Position numbers and translations under genes: made by a program
Assembly: GCA_030038125.1 (NCBI GenBank)
Contig: JASHPL010000122.1
Location: forward strand, 1-39,286
Source: Candidatus Sulfotelmatobacter sp.
Lineage (GTDB): Bacteria; Acidobacteriota; Terriglobia; Terriglobales; Acidobacteriaceae
Length of the DNA: 39,286 nt
Reading direction: 5' to 3'
The notes under the pieces: generated by a model
Database searches by the model: none
Told to the model about the DNA's origin: nothing
Seen by the model: the letters and a program-made list of their open reading frames with translations, nothing else
Shown here: positions 7,407 through 35,430 of the stretch, in pieces
Layout: each line of letters starts with the position of its first letter
How positions within the stretch are numbered: position 1 is the stretch's first letter

Positions 7407-8759
7407 CTAGTCTGCGAACACCGGAAGTTGCTCGACCGCGCCTTCCTTCTCGAACGGGCACGGCCGGCCTTCCAGATGATCCTCAAATTCTCTTCGGAAT
7501 TTCTGCACGAATGCGATCGTCGGCATGGCCGCCGCATCGCCCAACGGACAAAATGTCCGGCCCAGCATGTTTTCCGAAAGGTACTGCACGTTATCGATAT
7601 CCTTCTTCAATCCACCGCCGGCATGAAACCGGATGAGTGTCTTTTTCAACCAATCGGTGCCCTCGCGGCAGGGGATGCACCAGCCGCAGCTTTCGTGCTG
7701 ATAGAACTTCATCGTCCGCAGAGCGAACTTCACCATACACTGCGCATCGTCGATCACAACCACGCCGCCAGACCCCAACATCGATCCCGCTTTGGCCACG
7801 GAGTCAAAATCCATCGCGACATCGATCTCGTCGGCGGTGAGGCATGGCGTGGAAGATCCACCCGGAACGACCGCCTTCAAGTTGCGCCCGTTCGGGATGC
7901 CGCCACCCACATCATAAATCATTTGCTTTAAGTTATAGCCCATGGGCAGTTCGTAAACGCCGGGTTTCGCCAGATTCCCACTCAGGCAAAACAGCCGCGT
8001 ACCGCCGTTTTTCGGCGTGCCGATCTTCGCGTACCAATCCGCGCCGCCAAGAATAATGGGGGGGACGCTAGCCAGAGTCTCGGCATTATTGATGACTGTT
8101 GGTCCGCCCCACAAACCAACCACCGCGGGGAACGGCGGCCGGATACGCGGGATGCCGCGCTTGCCTTCAAGCGATTCCATGAGCGCCGATTCCTCGCCCA
8201 CCTCGTACGCCCCGGCCCCACCGTGCCAATAGATATCGAAATCGCGTCCACTGCCGAAGATGTTTCTGCCCAGAAATCCTTTGGCATAGGCATCCCGGAT
8301 CGCCTTTTGCATGATCACCGAAAGATAGCGATATTCGCCGCGAATATAGATGTATCCGCTTCGGGCTCCCACAGCCAAGCCCGCAATCATCACGCCCTCG
8401 ATCACCGAGTGCGGATCGTGTTCGAAGATGAGCCGATCCTTGCAGGTTCCTGGTTCGCTTTCATCGCCGTTGCAGAGAACGTATTTCGGCTTGGCCGACT
8501 GCTTGGGCACGAACGACCATTTCATCCCGGTAGAAAATCCCGCGCCTCCGCGTCCGCGCAGTCCGGAGTTCTTCACCTCAGTAATGATGGCATCGGGCTC
8601 CATCGAGAGCGCCTTCCGTACCGCCTTGTAGCCATCAAGTTCGAGATAGCGCTCGAGGTTGGTCGCGCCCTGGCCAAAGCGCCGCGAGACTACTCGCACT
8701 TCATCGGGATGGGAAACCAGAAAAGCCATGCAGACTGAATCATTGAGAGATTTGGTCAT
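7407..8759 (-). CDS. nuoF: NADH-quinone oxidoreductase subunit F (NADH-binding)
   Basis: This 450-residue flavoprotein oxidises NADH at the tip of complex I. The FMN/NADH fold is shown by GLRGRGGAGFSTGMKW, by GAGAYEVGEESALMESLEG, and by RPPFPAVVGLWGGPTVINN. The C-terminal N3 4Fe-4S cysteines are ESCGWCIPCREGT and the later TFCPLGD. The start is ambiguous: the longer start at 8759 reads through a hairpin element, while the ATG at 8729 (MAFLVSHPDEV) gives a more family-like N terminus. The gene lies between nuoE and nuoG in the standard order. Confidence 0.96.
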   Translation of the reverse strand: MTKSLNDSVCMAFLVSHPDEVRVVSRRFGQGATNLERYLELDGYKAVRKALSMEPDAIITEVKNSGLRGRGGAGFSTGMKWSFVPKQSAKPKYVLCNGDESEPGTCKDRLIFEHDPHSVIEGVMIAGLAVGARSGYIYIRGEYRYLSVIMQKAIRDAYAKGFLGRNIFGSGRDFDIYWHGGAGAYEVGEESALMESLEGKRGIPRIRPPFPAVVGLWGGPTVINNAETLASVPPIILGGADWYAKIGTPKNGGTRLFCLSGNLAKPGVYELPMGYNLKQMIYDVGGGIPNGRNLKAVVPGGSSTPCLTADEIDVAMDFDSVAKAGSMLGSGGVVVIDDAQCMVKFALRTMKFYQHESCGWCIPCREGTDWLKKTLIRFHAGGGLKKDIDNVQYLSENMLGRTFCPLGDAAAMPTIAFVQKFRREFEDHLEGRPCPFEKEGAVEQLPVFAD

Positions 8760-8799
8760 TGAGTCAACGGAAAGACTTCAAATGAACGAATGACTCAAT
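8758..8799 (-). repeat. Inverted repeat in the nuoE/nuoF junction
   Basis: Perfect 9-bp arms ATTGAGTCA (8758-8766) and TGACTCAAT (8791-8799) flank a 24-base loop. The octamer TCATTGAG also occurs twice, at 8740-8747 and 8756-8763, so the element reaches into the annotated 5' end of nuoF. It lies in the transcribed strand just upstream of, or across, the nuoF start. Its sequence differs from the 22-nt-core repeat family elsewhere in the window. Confidence 0.6.
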
Positions 8800-8820
8800 C
8801 CCCCAAATGGGCAAATTTGT

Positions 8821-9303
8821 TTATTGCGTTCCCTTGTTCTTGTACTCATCGAGAACTCTATCGATTTTTTCGGCCGTCAGATTCTCGTGAAAGTCGTAAT
8901 TCACTTGCGCAGCCGGCGCCCAGCTGCAAGCGCCAATGCATTCCACCTCTTCCAAAGAAAACAGTCCATCGGGAGTTGTACCTTTATTACCGATGCCGAG
9001 CTTTTTCTTGCAGTGATCCAGAATGTCTTCTCCGCCTCGGACCATGCAGCTGATGTTCGTACAAACCTGCACATTGAATTTGCCACGCGGCTTTGTGGTC
9101 AGCATCGAGTAATAGCTGATCACGTTGCGCACGTCGAGTTCGGTTAGATCGAGACGCGATGCGATCTCCGCGATGACTTCGTCCGACAAAAATCCCGTCT
9201 CGTCCTGGACGTACAGCAACGTCGGAACCAACACCGATCGTTTGATCGGGTAGTGAGTCACCATCTCCGCAAAGCGTGCTTCGAATTCCTCAGAAAATTT
9301 CAT
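8821..9303 (-). CDS. nuoE: NADH-quinone oxidoreductase subunit E
   Basis: This 160-residue thioredoxin-fold subunit binds the 2Fe-2S cluster N1a of complex I. The four ligands are visible as CTNISC and, about 36 residues later, CIGAC. The ATG at 9303 (MKFSEEF) is chosen because the longer in-frame ORF starting at 9375 would translate the hairpin repeat upstream. No Shine-Dalgarno sequence precedes the ATG; the bases where it should lie belong to the repeat at 9312-9395. Initiation may therefore depend on the RNA structure or on coupling to nuoD. Confidence 0.95.
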   Translation of the reverse strand: MKFSEEFEARFAEMVTHYPIKRSVLVPTLLYVQDETGFLSDEVIAEIASRLDLTELDVRNVISYYSMLTTKPRGKFNVQVCTNISCMVRGGEDILDHCKKKLGIGNKGTTPDGLFSLEEVECIGACSWAPAAQVNYDFHENLTAEKIDRVLDEYKNKGTQ

Positions 9304-9311
9304 GATTGCAT

Positions 9312-9395
9312 AATTTGGTAACCGGATAATTTGGGAATTTTTCCAACAACTCCTAGATGGTTCTTGAAATTCCAAAATTACCCGATTACCAAATT
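9312..9395 (-). repeat. Dispersed inverted repeat, copy 1 (nuoD/nuoE gap)
   Basis: Arms at 9312-9340 and 9367-9395 match at 26 of 29 positions around a 26-base loop. In the minus-strand transcript two of the three mismatches become G-U pairs. The minus strand carries the 22-nt core ATTTGGTAATC-G-GGTAATTTTG at 9394-9373. The element begins one base after the nuoD stop and ends eight bases before the nuoE ATG, so it makes up almost the whole gap. Confidence 0.85.
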
Positions 9396-9396
9396 C

Positions 9397-10593
9397 CTAA
9401 CGGTCGATTTCCCCGAGCACAATGTCAATGCTCCCAATCGCCGCCACAACATCTGCGATCAATCGTCCCTCGCACATCGTAGGAAGTGTTTGCAGATTGG
9501 CCAGACACGCGGCTCGCATGTGGACGCGATAAGGTTTGGCCGTCCCGTCACTCACAATGTAATATCCCATCTCGCCTCGCGGCGATTCCACCGCCTGATA
9601 AACTTCACCTGCCGGAACCGCAAAGCCTTCCGTGATGATCTTAAAGTGGTAGATGAGCGATTCCATCTGCGTTTTCATTTTTTCCCGGTCGGGCAGCACT
9701 ACGTGCGGCGCATTCGCCTTGATCGGGCCCTCGGGCATACCGTCGAGCGCCTGGCGCACGATTCCAATCGATTCTCGCAGTTCCTGCACCCGGCACATGT
9801 ATCGCGCGAAAACGTCGCCTTCCTGCGAGATCGGTACCTTGAACTGAAACTTGTCGTAGCTCGAGTACGGCATGTCTCGGCGGAAGTCAAAATCGACGCC
9901 GCTGCCGCGCAGCGTCGGCCCGCTTGTTCCCAGAGCGATCGCGTCTTGAGCAGTCATGCGAGCCACGCCCTTTGTCCGCATGGTCCAGATCGGATTTCCG
10001 GTCAGCAGGTTCTCGTATTCATCAACTTTCTCGGGGAAATATCCGGCGAAATCGCGAACGCGATCGAAAAATCCCAGCGGCGGCTCCAGCGCAATGCCTC
10101 CCACTCGGAAATATGACGTCATCATCCGCTGCCCGCTCACCATCTCAAACATGCGGAGGACTTCTTCCCGCTCGCGGAAGCAATACAAGAAGACCGTCAT
10201 CGCACCGATGTCCATGGCGTGTGTGCCCAACCACACCAGGTGGGAGTTAATCCTGGTCAACTCATTAAGCAAAACCCGCAGCCATTGTGCCTTTGGCGGG
10301 ATTTCCAGCCCCAGCAATTTTTCGACTGCGAGCACATAACAGAGATTGTTGGTCAGGGGGCAGAGATAATCGATGCGATCGGTCAGTGGGACGACCTGCT
10401 GGTAGAACTTCGCTTCGCAAGTCTTTTCAATCCCGGTGTGCAGGTAGCCGATATCCGGCATGATGCGCACTACAGTCTCCCCATCGATTTCGAGCAAAAC
10501 GCGCAGAACGCCGTGTGTTGACGGATGTTGCGGGCCCATGTTCAGGATCATGGTGCGATCCTGACCGGGTTCCAGCACCGGGCTGGCAGTCAT
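9397..10593 (-). CDS. nuoD: NADH-quinone oxidoreductase subunit D
   Basis: This 398-residue 49-kDa-type subunit lines the quinone cavity of complex I and descends from the large subunit of NiFe hydrogenase. Recognisable segments are MILNMGPQHPSTHGVLR with the quinone-site histidines, IGYLHTGIEKTCE, NSHLVWLGTHAMDIGAMT, and the C-terminal end IGSIDIVLGEIDR. The hydrogenase metal cysteines are absent, as usual. The ATG at 10593 is selected because the longer frame overlaps nuoC. Eight bases separate it from the nuoC stop. The stop is followed at once by the hairpin repeat. Confidence 0.97.
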   Translation of the reverse strand: MTASPVLEPGQDRTMILNMGPQHPSTHGVLRVLLEIDGETVVRIMPDIGYLHTGIEKTCEAKFYQQVVPLTDRIDYLCPLTNNLCYVLAVEKLLGLEIPPKAQWLRVLLNELTRINSHLVWLGTHAMDIGAMTVFLYCFREREEVLRMFEMVSGQRMMTSYFRVGGIALEPPLGFFDRVRDFAGYFPEKVDEYENLLTGNPIWTMRTKGVARMTAQDAIALGTSGPTLRGSGVDFDFRRDMPYSSYDKFQFKVPISQEGDVFARYMCRVQELRESIGIVRQALDGMPEGPIKANAPHVVLPDREKMKTQMESLIYHFKIITEGFAVPAGEVYQAVESPRGEMGYYIVSDGTAKPYRVHMRAACLANLQTLPTMCEGRLIADVVAAIGSIDIVLGEIDR

Positions 10594-10601
10594 GTGGGCC
10601 A

Positions 10602-11099
10602 CTAGCGATAACCCTCCACGGGGTAATCTTTGCGGAGAGGATGGCCTTCCCAATCCTCCGGCATGAGAATTCGCCGCAAGTACGGGTGACCAGTAAATCG
10701 AATGCCAAACAGGTCGAAAACTTCGCGCTCGAAATAGTTCGCGCCAGGCCACACCGCCGTGACGGAGTCAACCGCGGGACTGGAACTATGCAAACGAACC
10801 TTCAGACGCACCCGCTCTTTCTTCGCTATCGAGAGCACATGATAAACAACCTCAAAGCGCGGCTCCGATGGATACCAGTCTACGCAAGTGACGTCGGAGA
10901 GAAAATTAAAAGGGCAGGCCGGATCGTCCTTCAGCAACGCGCAGGCTTCACGGATGCTGCCGCGCTCGACATGGATGGTCATCTCGTCGCGGTCAAACTT
11001 CGTGCCCTGCACCGCAGCGGGATTCCAGGCAAGCAAGCGGGCCACCGCCGGATGATTCTTGAGTTGCGACAGATCTGTGATGGGGGCAACGAATGACAT
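10602..11099 (-). CDS. nuoC: NADH-quinone oxidoreductase subunit C
   Basis: This 165-residue 30-kDa-type subunit belongs to the quinone module of complex I. The family signature is the segment ANYFEREVFDLFGIRFTGHP followed by LRRILMPEDWEGHPLRKDYP at the C terminus. The ATG at 11099 overlaps the nuoA stop codon by one base (TGATG), suggesting termination-reinitiation. nuoB normally lies between nuoA and nuoC, but here the two genes are directly joined. It is not fused to nuoD, unlike in E. coli. Confidence 0.96.
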   Translation of the reverse strand: MSFVAPITDLSQLKNHPAVARLLAWNPAAVQGTKFDRDEMTIHVERGSIREACALLKDDPACPFNFLSDVTCVDWYPSEPRFEVVYHVLSIAKKERVRLKVRLHSSSPAVDSVTAVWPGANYFEREVFDLFGIRFTGHPYLRRILMPEDWEGHPLRKDYPVEGYR

Positions 11100-11485
11100 C
11101 AGGCCTTTCCTCGCGTTTCGCCCCAGTCGAGCACGCCCTTCTTCCAGATATAAAAGAAGCCGACGAGGAAAATCCCGATGTAAACCAGCATTTCCCACAA
11201 GCCGAAATGCTTGAGCTGCCGCAGGATTATTGCCCAGGGATAAATGAACACCGCTTCGACGTCGAACAAGATGAACAACATGGCGACCAGGTAGAACTTT
11301 ACCGAAAACGGCTGCCGCGAATCGCCTTGCGGCGTCATGCCGCATTCGTAAGGTGACAACTTGGCGCGTGTAGGCTTACGCTGACCGATCAGCCAGGAAA
11401 GCAGGATTATCGCAGTCGCAATCGCGCCCGCCAGCAGAATATGAATCAAGAACGGCAAGTAGCGAGCGAAATAATTGTCGGGCAT
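11099..11485 (-). CDS. nuoA: NADH-quinone oxidoreductase subunit A
   Basis: This 128-residue protein has three predicted membrane helices and is the first gene of the operon. The loop KLSPYECGMTPQGDSRQPFSVKFYLVA is the NuoA/ND3 signature, including the loop cysteine that marks active/deactive states in mitochondrial enzymes. FDVEAVFIYPWAI carries the conserved acidic pair. The start is the ATG at 11485. No Shine-Dalgarno sequence is visible, and the short upstream region is AT-rich, so the mRNA may have a very short leader. Confidence 0.96.
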   Translation of the reverse strand: MPDNYFARYLPFLIHILLAGAIATAIILLSWLIGQRKPTRAKLSPYECGMTPQGDSRQPFSVKFYLVAMLFILFDVEAVFIYPWAIILRQLKHFGLWEMLVYIGIFLVGFFYIWKKGVLDWGETRGKA

Positions 11486-11504: not shown

Positions 11505-11584
11505 TCGCGCCAAGCAGCGCCGAAACATTCTAGGTTATGGGCTTGGGTGCGAAGGTGTCAAGGGAAGGGCGGCCATTCCGCATG

Positions 11585-11674
11585 ATTTTGTGATTTGCAA
11601 GCGGGGAATTTTGTAATTTGAAAAATCGGCTCGTTTTCAGATCACAAAATTACCTGATTACCAAATTACAAAAT
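11585..11674. repeat. Dispersed inverted repeat, copy 2 (upstream of the 11673 gene)
   Basis: Left arm 11585-11617 and right arm 11641-11674 pair imperfectly, with about three quarters matching and one gap, around a 23-base loop. The minus strand carries the 22-nt core at 11666-11645 with one change: ATTTGGTAATC-A-GGTAATTTTG. The right arm ends on the start codon of the plus-strand gene at 11673. The element lies between divergent genes (nuoA and the unknown gene). Confidence 0.75.
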
Positions 11675-12257
11675 GATTTTTGGGTTCAATACCGATGTGA
11701 AGCACGGCGATACGATCTATCACGTGCAGAGCGAAGCGCGCGAGGGCGAGCATCTGCTCCAAACTCAGGTGTTCGTACGTGGCCGTTGTGTCGGTAAGCG
11801 TGCCAGGTCCTATGCCAACAGCGCGAGCGAAGCCCAGTCTGGGGACGCCCAGAAAGAGCACCAGCTTCGAGAACAGCACCGCCTTGTGCTGGACGCCATT
11901 CGGGAAGGCAAACTGGATTCCGTGCTGGATCGCGGCGAGCCCGAAGCTCTCGCCACCGTCAAAGAGCTGGAAGTGCTGTGGCTCAATGCCGATTCGGTGC
12001 TTTCCAACCGCAATCTGACGATGCAGTTGCGAGTGACCGAGGGCGGCGAAGCGGCGCCGGGCGCCCGGTTGACCTTCCGTTTCGCGCGTCCAGGTGCGGC
12101 GCCGTTCTACACACAAGCCGTGGCCGATTCGGTGGGATCCGCTGAAATTATGATCGAAGTCGAGGAAGCTGTGCTCCCCGATTCATCCCTGTTGGTGCAG
12201 GCGAACTACGAGGGGCGAACCGCAACTCGGAAGTTTGTTCTGCGCAAAGCCGACTAG
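11673..12257 (+). CDS. Conserved-looking protein of unknown function
   Basis: This 194-residue protein is soluble, with no signal peptide or membrane segment visible. I do not recognise a named family. The N-terminal third (MIFGFNTDVKHGDTIYHVQS) looks like beta strands. A charged helical stretch of about 40 residues follows, and the last 90 residues (TMQLRVTEGGEAAPGARLTF onward) read like a beta-sandwich, perhaps of the carboxypeptidase-regulatory or Ig type. The ATG overlaps the end of an inverted repeat and has no Shine-Dalgarno sequence. The stop codon abuts the next ATG, that of a ThiS-like gene, so the two are probably co-transcribed and may work together. The codon pattern looks like that of a real gene. 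Confidence 0.7.
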   Translation: MIFGFNTDVKHGDTIYHVQSEAREGEHLLQTQVFVRGRCVGKRARSYANSASEAQSGDAQKEHQLREQHRLVLDAIREGKLDSVLDRGEPEALATVKELEVLWLNADSVLSNRNLTMQLRVTEGGEAAPGARLTFRFARPGAAPFYTQAVADSVGSAEIMIEVEEAVLPDSSLLVQANYEGRTATRKFVLRKAD

Positions 12258-33914: not shown

Positions 33915-35048
33915 TCACTTTGGATTGGTGCGATAGGTCCACAAATCCTGGTTCGTTTTTTGTAATTGGATAAAAGAATTCGTGGATTCATGCCTTGAGA
34001 TCGCGGACTGGGAACTGGCCTCGCGTATTGCGGACTCGATAATGGGATGCGCGGGAGCCAGCGAGCACGCAGGATCAGTTGCAGTCGCGTCACCCGCAAG
34101 AAGAAAGGCTTGGCAGCGGCATCCGCCGAAATCTTCGCTGCGGCGTTCGCAACTTCGGCACGGCTCCGGCATCCATTCTTCACCGCGAAAGCGTTGGAAG
34201 GAGGGCGATTCCTCCCAGATCCATTCCAGACTCCGTTCGCGGACATTCTCGAAGTTCATTCCCGGCAAAACTTCGGCTGCATGGCAGGGCAATACTTTCC
34301 CCGTTGGATTAATCAACATCAATCTGCGCCCCCATCCACCCATGCAGGCCTTGGGAAACTTCGCATAATAGTCTGGAACCACGGAATCGATGCGTATGCG
34401 CCCGGCGAGCCGTTTTTCGGCTTCGGCCACGACGTTGACGGCCTTCTCTACTTGTGCAGCCGTCGGCATGAGCGCTCCACGGTTGGCGAGTGCCCAGCCG
34501 TAGTACTGCGTGTGGGCGATTTCCATGCGATCCGGGGACAATTGCTCGAGGAAGGCAATCATTTCTTCCAGGTGATCGAGGTTCTGGCGATGCACGACCA
34601 GGTTCACCGTGAACGCGATGTTATGTCGACGGATTGCGCGCGAGAGTTCGAGTTTGTGCGCGTGGGCTTTTGATCCCGCGATCCAGTTCGCTGTGTCTTC
34701 TCGCGAATCCTGAAAGCTGATCTGAATGTGATCGAGTCCAGCATCGACAAGTGCTCGCAATCGCTGCTCGCTCAATCCAACACCCGAAGTGATGAGGTTG
34801 GTGTAAAGCCCGGATCCGCGAGCAGCAGAAATCAACTCTGTCAGGTCGGCGCGTGCCAGCGGTTCTCCGCCGGTGAAGTGCGCATGCAGCATTCCGAGTT
34901 TGCCGGCTTGCGCGAAAACGTGGTCCCACTCGCCCGTGGACAATTCCGAGTGCACATCCGCAAGCTGCATGGGATTGGAACAATAGACACAATGTAGCGG
35001 GCAGCGGTGCGTGATTTCGGCAATGAGGGCGAGAGGGTTGGACCGCAT
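33915..35048 (-). CDS. pqqE: PqqA peptide cyclase (radical SAM protein PqqE)
   Basis: This 377-residue radical SAM enzyme joins the Glu and Tyr side chains of PqqA in the first step of PQQ synthesis. The radical SAM cysteines are C16, C20 and C23 in HRCPLHCVYC, and FTGGEPLAR follows. The SPASM-type C-terminal clusters are KACMGGWGRRLMLINPTGKV, LPCHAAEV, and EPCRSCERRSEDFGGCRCQAF. The start is ATG 35048, which lies on the edge of an inverted repeat with no visible Shine-Dalgarno sequence. The last 25 residues or so after SAISRHE are unlike the family and may be an extension. Confidence 0.95.
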   Translation of the reverse strand: MRSNPLALIAEITHRCPLHCVYCSNPMQLADVHSELSTGEWDHVFAQAGKLGMLHAHFTGGEPLARADLTELISAARGSGLYTNLITSGVGLSEQRLRALVDAGLDHIQISFQDSREDTANWIAGSKAHAHKLELSRAIRRHNIAFTVNLVVHRQNLDHLEEMIAFLEQLSPDRMEIAHTQYYGWALANRGALMPTAAQVEKAVNVVAEAEKRLAGRIRIDSVVPDYYAKFPKACMGGWGRRLMLINPTGKVLPCHAAEVLPGMNFENVRERSLEWIWEESPSFQRFRGEEWMPEPCRSCERRSEDFGGCRCQAFLLAGDATATDPACSLAPAHPIIESAIREASSQSAISRHESTNSFIQLQKTNQDLWTYRTNPK

Positions 35049-35140
35049 TTGGTAATCGGGTAATTTTGCAATTGGCTAATTTGGGATAGCTGAATCACAT
35101 AAAACGCAATGCTGCACCATTCCCAAATTACTCAATTACA
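35047..35140. repeat. Dispersed inverted repeat, copy 3 (pqqD/pqqE gap)
   Basis: The 22-nt core ATTTGGTAATC-G-GGTAATTTTG is at 35047-35068 on the plus strand, identical to copy 1. Arms at 35067-35086 and 35121-35140 match at 17 of 20 positions around a 34-base loop. The element starts on the pqqE start codon and ends eight bases before the pqqD stop codon, so it fills most of the gap. Confidence 0.8.
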
Positions 35141-35148
35141 CGATTTCT

Positions 35149-35430
35149 TCAATAGTCGACGATGCGTTTCTTCTGCAGTTGCTCCAGAAAGGTGCCGATA
35201 TCCGATCGAATCTTCGCGGGATCGGTTTTTCCGAACTCCTTTTGCAATTGCTGAATGATATCGGCAAAAGTGCGCGTTCCATCGCACCGCTCCAGCACCT
35301 GTCTGCCTGTGCCTTGCAACTTGATTGCCCCCTCGGGAAACAAAATCACGCGATCTTGTTCGGTTCCACCCCAGCGGCAACCTGGGGCGAGCCGCGGCTG
35401 GCTTGTATCCGAAGGAGGCGCCACCATCAC
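35149..35430 (-). CDS. pqqD: PQQ biosynthesis peptide chaperone PqqD
   Basis: This 93-residue protein is a winged-helix peptide chaperone that presents PqqA to PqqE. The typical form is seen in DRVILFPEGAIKLQGTGRQVLERCDGTRTFADIIQQL, and the fold is completed by TFLEQLQKKRIVDY. The start overlaps the pqqC stop as ATGA, so the two are coupled. Although PqqD is fused to PqqC or PqqE in some bacteria, here it is separate. Confidence 0.93.
   Translation of the reverse strand: MMVAPPSDTSQPRLAPGCRWGGTEQDRVILFPEGAIKLQGTGRQVLERCDGTRTFADIIQQLQKEFGKTDPAKIRSDIGTFLEQLQKKRIVDY

Follow-up and report, generated by a model that had tools for sequence, protein, structure and literature searches.

The hairpin between nuoD and nuoE

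What is a strongly folding hairpin doing between two adjacent genes of one operon, in a gap that it almost fills? The question is posed by a 39,286-nt stretch of Candidatus Sulfotelmatobacter sp. DNA, which we analyzed as a whole and refer to as the window. On its minus strand, nuoD (9397–10602, with its start placed by our own codon model and its stop codon, TAG, at 9399–9397; TIGR01962, 565.6 bits against a cut-off of 459.35) is followed by nuoE (8821–9303, with its ATG at 9303–9301; TIGR01958, 161.6 bits against a cut-off of 142.4). In the sense of nuo transcription, the 5′ arm of the hairpin (9367–9395), which carries GTAATTTG/GTAATCGG-type units of 8 nt, precedes a 26-nt loop (9341–9366), where long relatives at the same site hold a PF05635 gene, and the 3′ arm (9312–9340), all on the minus strand. 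The first-pass annotation had described an inverted repeat with 29-nt arms and 26 matches, and we recovered it as such: the arms are 29 nt long, 90% complementary (26/29) and spaced by 26 nt, in a hairpin that takes up 84 of the 93 nt between the genes and leaves 1 nt to the nuoD stop codon and 8 nt to the nuoE start codon. In the minus-strand RNA, 28 of the 29 arm positions can pair, as the annotation had also stated, with the three mismatches becoming two G-U pairs and one U-C mismatch. Folding the 141-nt minus-strand segment 9420–9280 yielded −47.9 kcal/mol (z = −5.46), whereas 200 shuffles averaged −29.98 (sd 3.28) and none matched this energy.

Inspection by eye of the sequence 5′ of the nuoE ATG revealed no Shine-Dalgarno-like stretch, in agreement with the annotation. 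No Rfam family matched the window at its gathering score, and our scan for promoter-like and terminator-like patterns reported none on the hairpin. We rejected an intrinsic terminator as an explanation, as the sole terminator-like site between 9200 and 9500 lay at 9249–9234, within nuoE, in a scan that admitted loops of 3–8 only.

We examined the orthologous site across the genus, where 42 of 45 genomes had a nuoE-like match (some of these being paralogues), 37 had a readable nuo neighbourhood and 35 had a readable nuoD/nuoE gap. In 13 of the 35 the site was empty, with a 4-nt stop/start overlap and no gap at all, whereas a short hairpin of 8-nt units was present in five (our own genome, G032, G061, G065 and G066), a long form of 442–482 nt in six (G001, G002, G012, G026, G027 and G031) and other sequence in the remaining 11. 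Two of the genomes, G016 (L219) and G023 (L231), carried in this gap an unlike palindrome of the CTGTG...CACAG type, which indicates that the junction takes several kinds of insert. The inserts of G029 (L230; 184 nt) and G036 (L237; 179 nt) resembled each other by eye and were not hairpins of 8-nt units. Occupancy of the site was patchy and insertion-like, with its states scattered over a nuoD–nuoE tree (31 rows), in which 10 of 28 inner branches were well supported; with support this weak, gains and losses at the site are not countable. Comparing empty with filled sites by eye suggested a possible short TGA duplication, yet the stop and start codons alone yield TGA.

The neighbouring nuoE/nuoF gap (8730–8820, minus strand) holds a weaker hairpin with the same type of 8-nt unit (arms at 8751–8766 and 8791–8806). 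A hairpin of 8-nt units was found in this gap in most genomes, with letters that differed between species, and 30 of the 31 that we scored exceeded all 20 of their own shuffles. (The 31 come from the 37 genomes after skipping G007, G066 and G014 [9–15 nt] and G003 [349 nt] by length and leaving G027 and G062 unparsed.) The median arm score was 23.0 for own pairs and 10.8 for pairs across genomes, of which 58 of 930 were equally good. Likewise, among 65 dispersed GTAATTTG hairpins described below, the own arm outscored the mean of the other copies in 51 (p = 1e-6). The arms are thus kept alike within each copy while their letters change. The near-ubiquity of the nuoE/nuoF hairpin suggests a vertically inherited feature whose letters turn over quickly more than it suggests hopping.

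The first-pass annotation had gone further, reading the two G-U pairs as a sign that the repeat is kept as RNA structure and not as a DNA palindrome. Selection on a folded mRNA should favour G-U pairs on the sense strand. At the nuo sites, mismatches had no strand preference: G-U accounted for 63, A-C for 62 and other combinations for 144 (p = 1.0), counting only hairpins that beat their shuffles, including the unlike palindromes of G016 and G023, and skipping nuoD/nuoE gaps of >150 or <35 nt. Dispersed copies in tandem gaps similarly lacked a significant G-U excess (G-U 95, A-C 81, other 287; p = 0.33). With no such excess in either set, G-U pairs give no grounds for inferring a structure specific to RNA, and we reject RNA-only conservation on that basis; the absence of the expected bias points either to weak selection or to a process acting on the DNA that makes the palindromes or keeps them up.

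Dispersed copies and a long form with a PF05635 gene

Relatives of the hairpin occur at loci unrelated to nuoD and nuoE. Within the window, one lies at about 11582–11677, in the divergent gap between nuoA (11099–11485, minus strand) and a plus-strand gene that starts at 11673, and another at 35040–35170, between pqqD and pqqE (bounds approximate, from the arm alignment). Both pqqE and the plus-strand gene have their start codon where an element arm ends (35040–35073 and 11660–11677, respectively), and that of nuoF is likewise at an arm edge in many relatives. A further copy in the same genome, at C135:10357-10437, is 78% identical to the window hairpin. Of 61 genomes searched, 17 had matches to the element; these were 17 of the 37 genomes that belong to the genus, compared with 0 of 24 outside it. 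Counting match rows, in which one palindrome may appear on both strands, five genomes had at least 10 each (G021, G024, G029, G030 and G032), with 17 apiece in G024 and G032 and none in 20 of the 37 genus genomes.

A search of a genome collection with the arm pattern returned 50 stretches, all from Acidobacteriota by record title. After setting aside 35 motif matches without a hairpin, the stretches examined contained 70 hairpins, of which 53 were in tandem gaps, 7 in convergent gaps, 5 in divergent gaps and 5 at stretch edges, such that 65 could be placed. None of the 70 lay inside a gene, as called by our own codon model, which was trained on 15 window ORFs and applied to other genera too. 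The arm edge typically abutted a stop codon (median −1 nt). A preference of the short form for tandem gaps was not clear by count (53/65 compared with 259/339 other gaps, p = 0.42); the same comparison by share of intergenic bases gave p = 0.012.

The long form at the nuoD/nuoE site contains a loop ORF of ~119 codons that matched PF05635 (23S_rRNA_IVP) at 60.1 bits (cut-off 33.8). Proteins of this nuo-site type were found in 24 of 45 genus genomes, at nuoD/nuoE or, in others, at nuoF/nuoG, whereas the genome of the window lacks one and has a single PF05635 gene of another type (on C246). The arms of the long and short forms are alike, most clearly at L067 in G021:C479, where a PF05635 ORF (48.1 bits) stands between GTAATTTG/GTAATCGG arms that resemble the arms of the window hairpin. 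At nuoF/nuoG in G003 and G068, we found partly deleted PF05635 ORFs next to arms. The family as a whole matched in 43 of 45 genus genomes, 0 of 14 control genomes and 144 of 297 genomes in a phylum-wide sample.

Six PF05635 copies at nuoD/nuoE had a mean pN of 0.076 and a mean pS of 0.75, with a median dN/dS of 0.037 (15 pairs, including those with the G031 ORF, which ends out of frame), and five copies at nuoF/nuoG had a median of 0.042 (10 pairs). Because pS is near saturation these values are approximate, and they clearly point to purifying selection on the nuo-site protein. A structure predicted for the L067 protein, with a pLDDT of 94, matched two S23-family structures, 2rld (E 1.1e-5) and the Xanthomonas protein 2gsc (E 0.009). 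A weaker match was to Avd of diversity-generating retroelements (4dwl; E 0.042, probability 1.00), and the G001 protein matched 2rld by sequence at E 2.4e-18. The loop protein is a four-helix bundle.

Inverted repeats and orientation at PF05635 loci

Inverted repeats proved to be a general feature of the PF05635 loci tested. When we scored reverse complementarity between the sequences upstream and downstream of the PF05635 core, within 200 nt and with the 99th percentile of shuffles as cut-off, 92 of 105 cores were flanked by inverted repeats, compared with 4 of 96 windows shifted outward by 450 nt. By group, these comprised 26 of 29 high-scoring genus loci, 26 of 28 genus nuo-site loci, 24 of 29 loci from the phylum sample (the best-scoring matches listed, in which L187 and L190 have identical arms) and 16 of 19 plasmid loci. 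The plasmid loci came from 19 of 33 matching records, mostly cyanobacterial together with Gemmatirosa and Azospirillum, and all 19 proteins exceeded the PF05635 cut-off. Their threshold was 19.5 in a first run (9/11) and 15.5 when the shuffles were redrawn over all 19; at 19.5, 14 of the 19 pass. A control set at nuoE, in which 7 of 29 passed the threshold, is not clean, since the elements themselves are part of it.

Pairing arms across loci mostly gave far lower scores (medians of 9.5–11.5, compared with 21–27 for own arms). Cross pairs over threshold numbered 55/279 and 99/270 in the two genus groups, where many pass because orthologous or like copies share letters, and 10/277 in the phylum sample. 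Of the 86 arms that we tested for periodicity (inverted-repeat score ≥15, length ≥22 nt), 80 were periodic (p < 0.05), and the best lag among 5–12 was 7 for 57 and 8 for 23. Most arms are composed of units of 7 or 8 nt in tandem, and the letters of the units vary from locus to locus.

The PF05635 genes also tended to follow the direction of transcription. At 82 Acidobacteriota loci (orthologous sites included), with neighbours called by the codon model described above, the gene was co-directional with both neighbours in 63, against both in 3, downstream of a co-directional gene and facing a convergent one in 13, and the reverse in 3. It thus ran in the direction of the upstream gene in 76 of 82, and in tandem contexts in that of both neighbours in 63 of 66. 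When we collapsed the loci to 40 site clusters the four counts became 25, 3, 9 and 3, and the difference between 25 and 3 was significant (p = 2.7e-5). Four plasmid copies that are antisense by annotation (L208, L209, L211 and L263) stood outside this test and run against the trend; one antisense example lies between two genes for ribonucleotide reductase and another between two toxin-secretion genes. The bias may reflect insertion in the direction of transcription or, if expression of the gene relies on a promoter upstream of the insert, the loss of antisense copies.

The largest site cluster comprised 13 loci, among them L118, L126, L136, L181 and L194, at a junction that holds a PF05635 gene in many species, with L181 and L194 coming from other genera of the family. 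This junction is an old or repeatedly used site; judging from the peptides, we take its upstream neighbour to be the end of a DprA-like gene and its downstream neighbour to be the start of a topA-like gene. As a separate observation, a TGTGA-N6-TCACA palindrome (at most 1 mismatch), which we take to be a CRP-like motif, was present in 15 of 59 genus loci (including L128, L162, L166, L173–L175 and L177), at most 200 nt upstream of the PF05635 core, and in none of the shifted control windows, the 29 phylum loci or 11 plasmid loci.

Explanations and known systems

We think that the window hairpin is probably (at a probability of about 0.7) a copy, stripped of its ORF, of a dispersed hairpin element whose complete form has a PF05635 gene in its loop. 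Because the family is dispersed and includes fuller copies with this gene, the hairpin looks more like the leftover of a mobile element than like a control switch for complex I, and our proposal is that hairpin elements resembling IVSs form a class that lives in operon gaps. A complete element consists of an inverted repeat with about four tandem 8-nt units per arm and a gene for the PF05635 four-helix bundle in the loop. The family settles in intergenic gaps, tight against stop codons, and it may move or be copied, with the PF05635 protein or something else acting in trans. Shared arms and truncated intermediates suggest that the short form arose through loss of the loop gene, although the reverse order is possible. 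An operon may tolerate the insert because the hairpin, once folded in the mRNA, would leave the nuoD stop and nuoE start adjacent; at an empty site, with its 4-nt overlap, translation is presumably coupled. RNase III may cut the hairpin, by analogy with the cutting of rRNA intervening sequences, and any effect on nuoE translation would be a side effect.

As for what moves the elements, their match counts per genome followed none of the candidate genes that we counted, PF05635 included, and no transposase was identified. Correlations with the number of PF05635 genes were not significant (Spearman 0.12 for all and 0.20 for the nuo-site type), which gives no help to the view that the protein spreads short copies. 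A reverse transcriptase, which we considered as mobiliser, was rejected, as counts were weakly inverse (Spearman −0.33, p = 0.044, n = 37); RVT_1 was found in 30 of 45 genus genomes, including G024 and G030 and none of the element-rich drafts G021, G029 and G032.

Three other explanations were weighed against this one. The annotation had suggested that the hairpin tunes the relative output of complex I subunits, and an RNA element dedicated to setting nuoE translation or mRNA stability in cis would fit the strong fold, the lack of a Shine-Dalgarno sequence and the pairing that is kept at nuoE/nuoF as letters change. These components of the suggestion stand, whereas its nuo-specific reading fails: the same family occurs at unrelated loci, 13 of the 35 readable relatives lack any nuoD/nuoE gap, 7 convergent and 5 divergent copies are among the 65 placed, and sense-strand G-U pairs are not in excess. 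We regard such a dedicated element as very improbable. An ordinary REP or MITE moved by a RAYT or an IS transposase would likewise be small, palindromic, dispersed and intergenic, and Y1_Tnp matches are found in 43 of 45 genus genomes (with one weak match, E 1.5e-5, in the genome of the window). REPs carry GTAG or CGTC tags next to a palindrome of 20–40 bp (tags as named in excerpts of PMC3733652), yet neither tag is present on either strand of 9304–9396. In addition, match counts are unrelated to Y1_Tnp counts (Spearman −0.04, p 0.80, n = 37) and the loop gene of the long form belongs to PF05635 rather than encoding a transposase, leaving this explanation very improbable.

An explanation that dispenses with mobility is a vertically inherited operon spacer, in which palindromes hold stop and start codons together for termination–reinitiation and the arms change in concert. 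It accounts for the nuoE/nuoF hairpin (30 of 31 scored genomes) better than mobility does, and it also agrees with the arms that abut stop codons (median −1 nt) and with the 4-nt overlaps at empty nuoD/nuoE sites. It is harder to reconcile with copies in convergent and divergent gaps, with numbers as uneven as 17 match rows in each of G024 and G032 and none in 20 of 37 genomes, and with the many copies that have a protein gene in the loop, and we therefore consider it unlikely. A concrete puzzle is what keeps the two inverted arrays of a copy alike when the letters differ among copies.

Among known systems, the closest to the long form is the rRNA IVS, which for Coxiella 23S rRNA is described, in excerpts of PMC4990558, as 428–444 nt long with an S23p/IVP gene. 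In both, complementary ends form a hairpin whose loop contains a PF05635/S23 gene, and their lengths are comparable (428–444 compared with 442–482 nt). In CPR bacteria, IVP genes are scattered over several rRNA sites, and insertions with and without an ORF share sites, which is said of LAGLIDADG forms (excerpts of PMC11270868). The complementary ends of the window hairpin form a stem, as in an IVS, but it lies between nuoD and nuoE rather than in the rRNA gene that defines an IVS by location, and its 26-nt loop lacks the PF05635/S23 gene, which is not in every IVS either and is present in 6 of 35 same-site relatives. Also unlike the rRNA IVS, most arms here are made of tandem 7- or 8-nt units.

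Older work exists on STRR sequences and on the repeats of the Nostoc tRNA-Leu intron. Cyanobacterial STRR hairpins lie between genes of an operon, for example between hupS and hupL (excerpts of PMC2670836 and PMC2408588), and their function is still not known according to PMC2670836, as excerpted. Like them, the short form consists of short tandem repeats in gaps within one operon; the window hairpin has such units in its arms and sits in a tandem operon gap, with a unit of 8 where the STRR unit is usually 7 bp, and the excerpted STRR descriptions make no link to PF05635. Facing arrays of inverted GGGAATC heptamers, mostly intergenic, were described in Xanthomonas, with 70 and 75 pairs in two genomes; they were studied as quadruplex formers, and S23 goes unmentioned in the excerpts of that paper (PMC4692102).

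PF05635 genes in cas loci, for example between cmr2 and cmr3, have been reported as CRISPR-associated (excerpts of PMC3936711 and PMC10910872), and they share with ours the family and the position within an operon. We found cyanobacterial plasmid examples (L210, L215 and L216) in cas6/cas4 gaps and in a gap between cas10 and a cmr3-family gene, and infer that these and other cas-locus copies may be insertions in operon gaps. This offers a simple reason for the presence of PF05635 genes beside cas genes and in other operons, and a caution for guilt-by-association studies. The resemblance of PF05635 to Avd is on record (excerpts of PMC10053308), and the predicted L067 fold is the same as that of Avd from diversity-generating retroelements (4dwl).

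Among the matches listed from titles and abstracts of open-licence PubMed Central papers, a set without bioRxiv preprints, we found none that connects PF05635 genes outside rRNA with inverted repeats of tandem units on their flanks. The comparison gives a common, uncharacterised family a testable genomic setting, the loop of a tandem-unit hairpin in operon gaps, and it may connect the cyanobacterial repeat hairpins of unknown function with a protein. We tentatively suggest, at a little short of even odds, that PF05635 proteins in general are the cargo of mobile elements that occur across phyla, are oriented with transcription and end in arrays of 7- or 8-nt units in inverted orientation. The letters would vary among copies and agree within each, and the Avd-like protein would act on the arms or on RNA made from them. 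In that case rRNA IVSs, the STRR hairpins of cyanobacteria, the heptamer pairs of Xanthomonas and the IVP genes called 'CRISPR-associated' would all be forms of a single thing.
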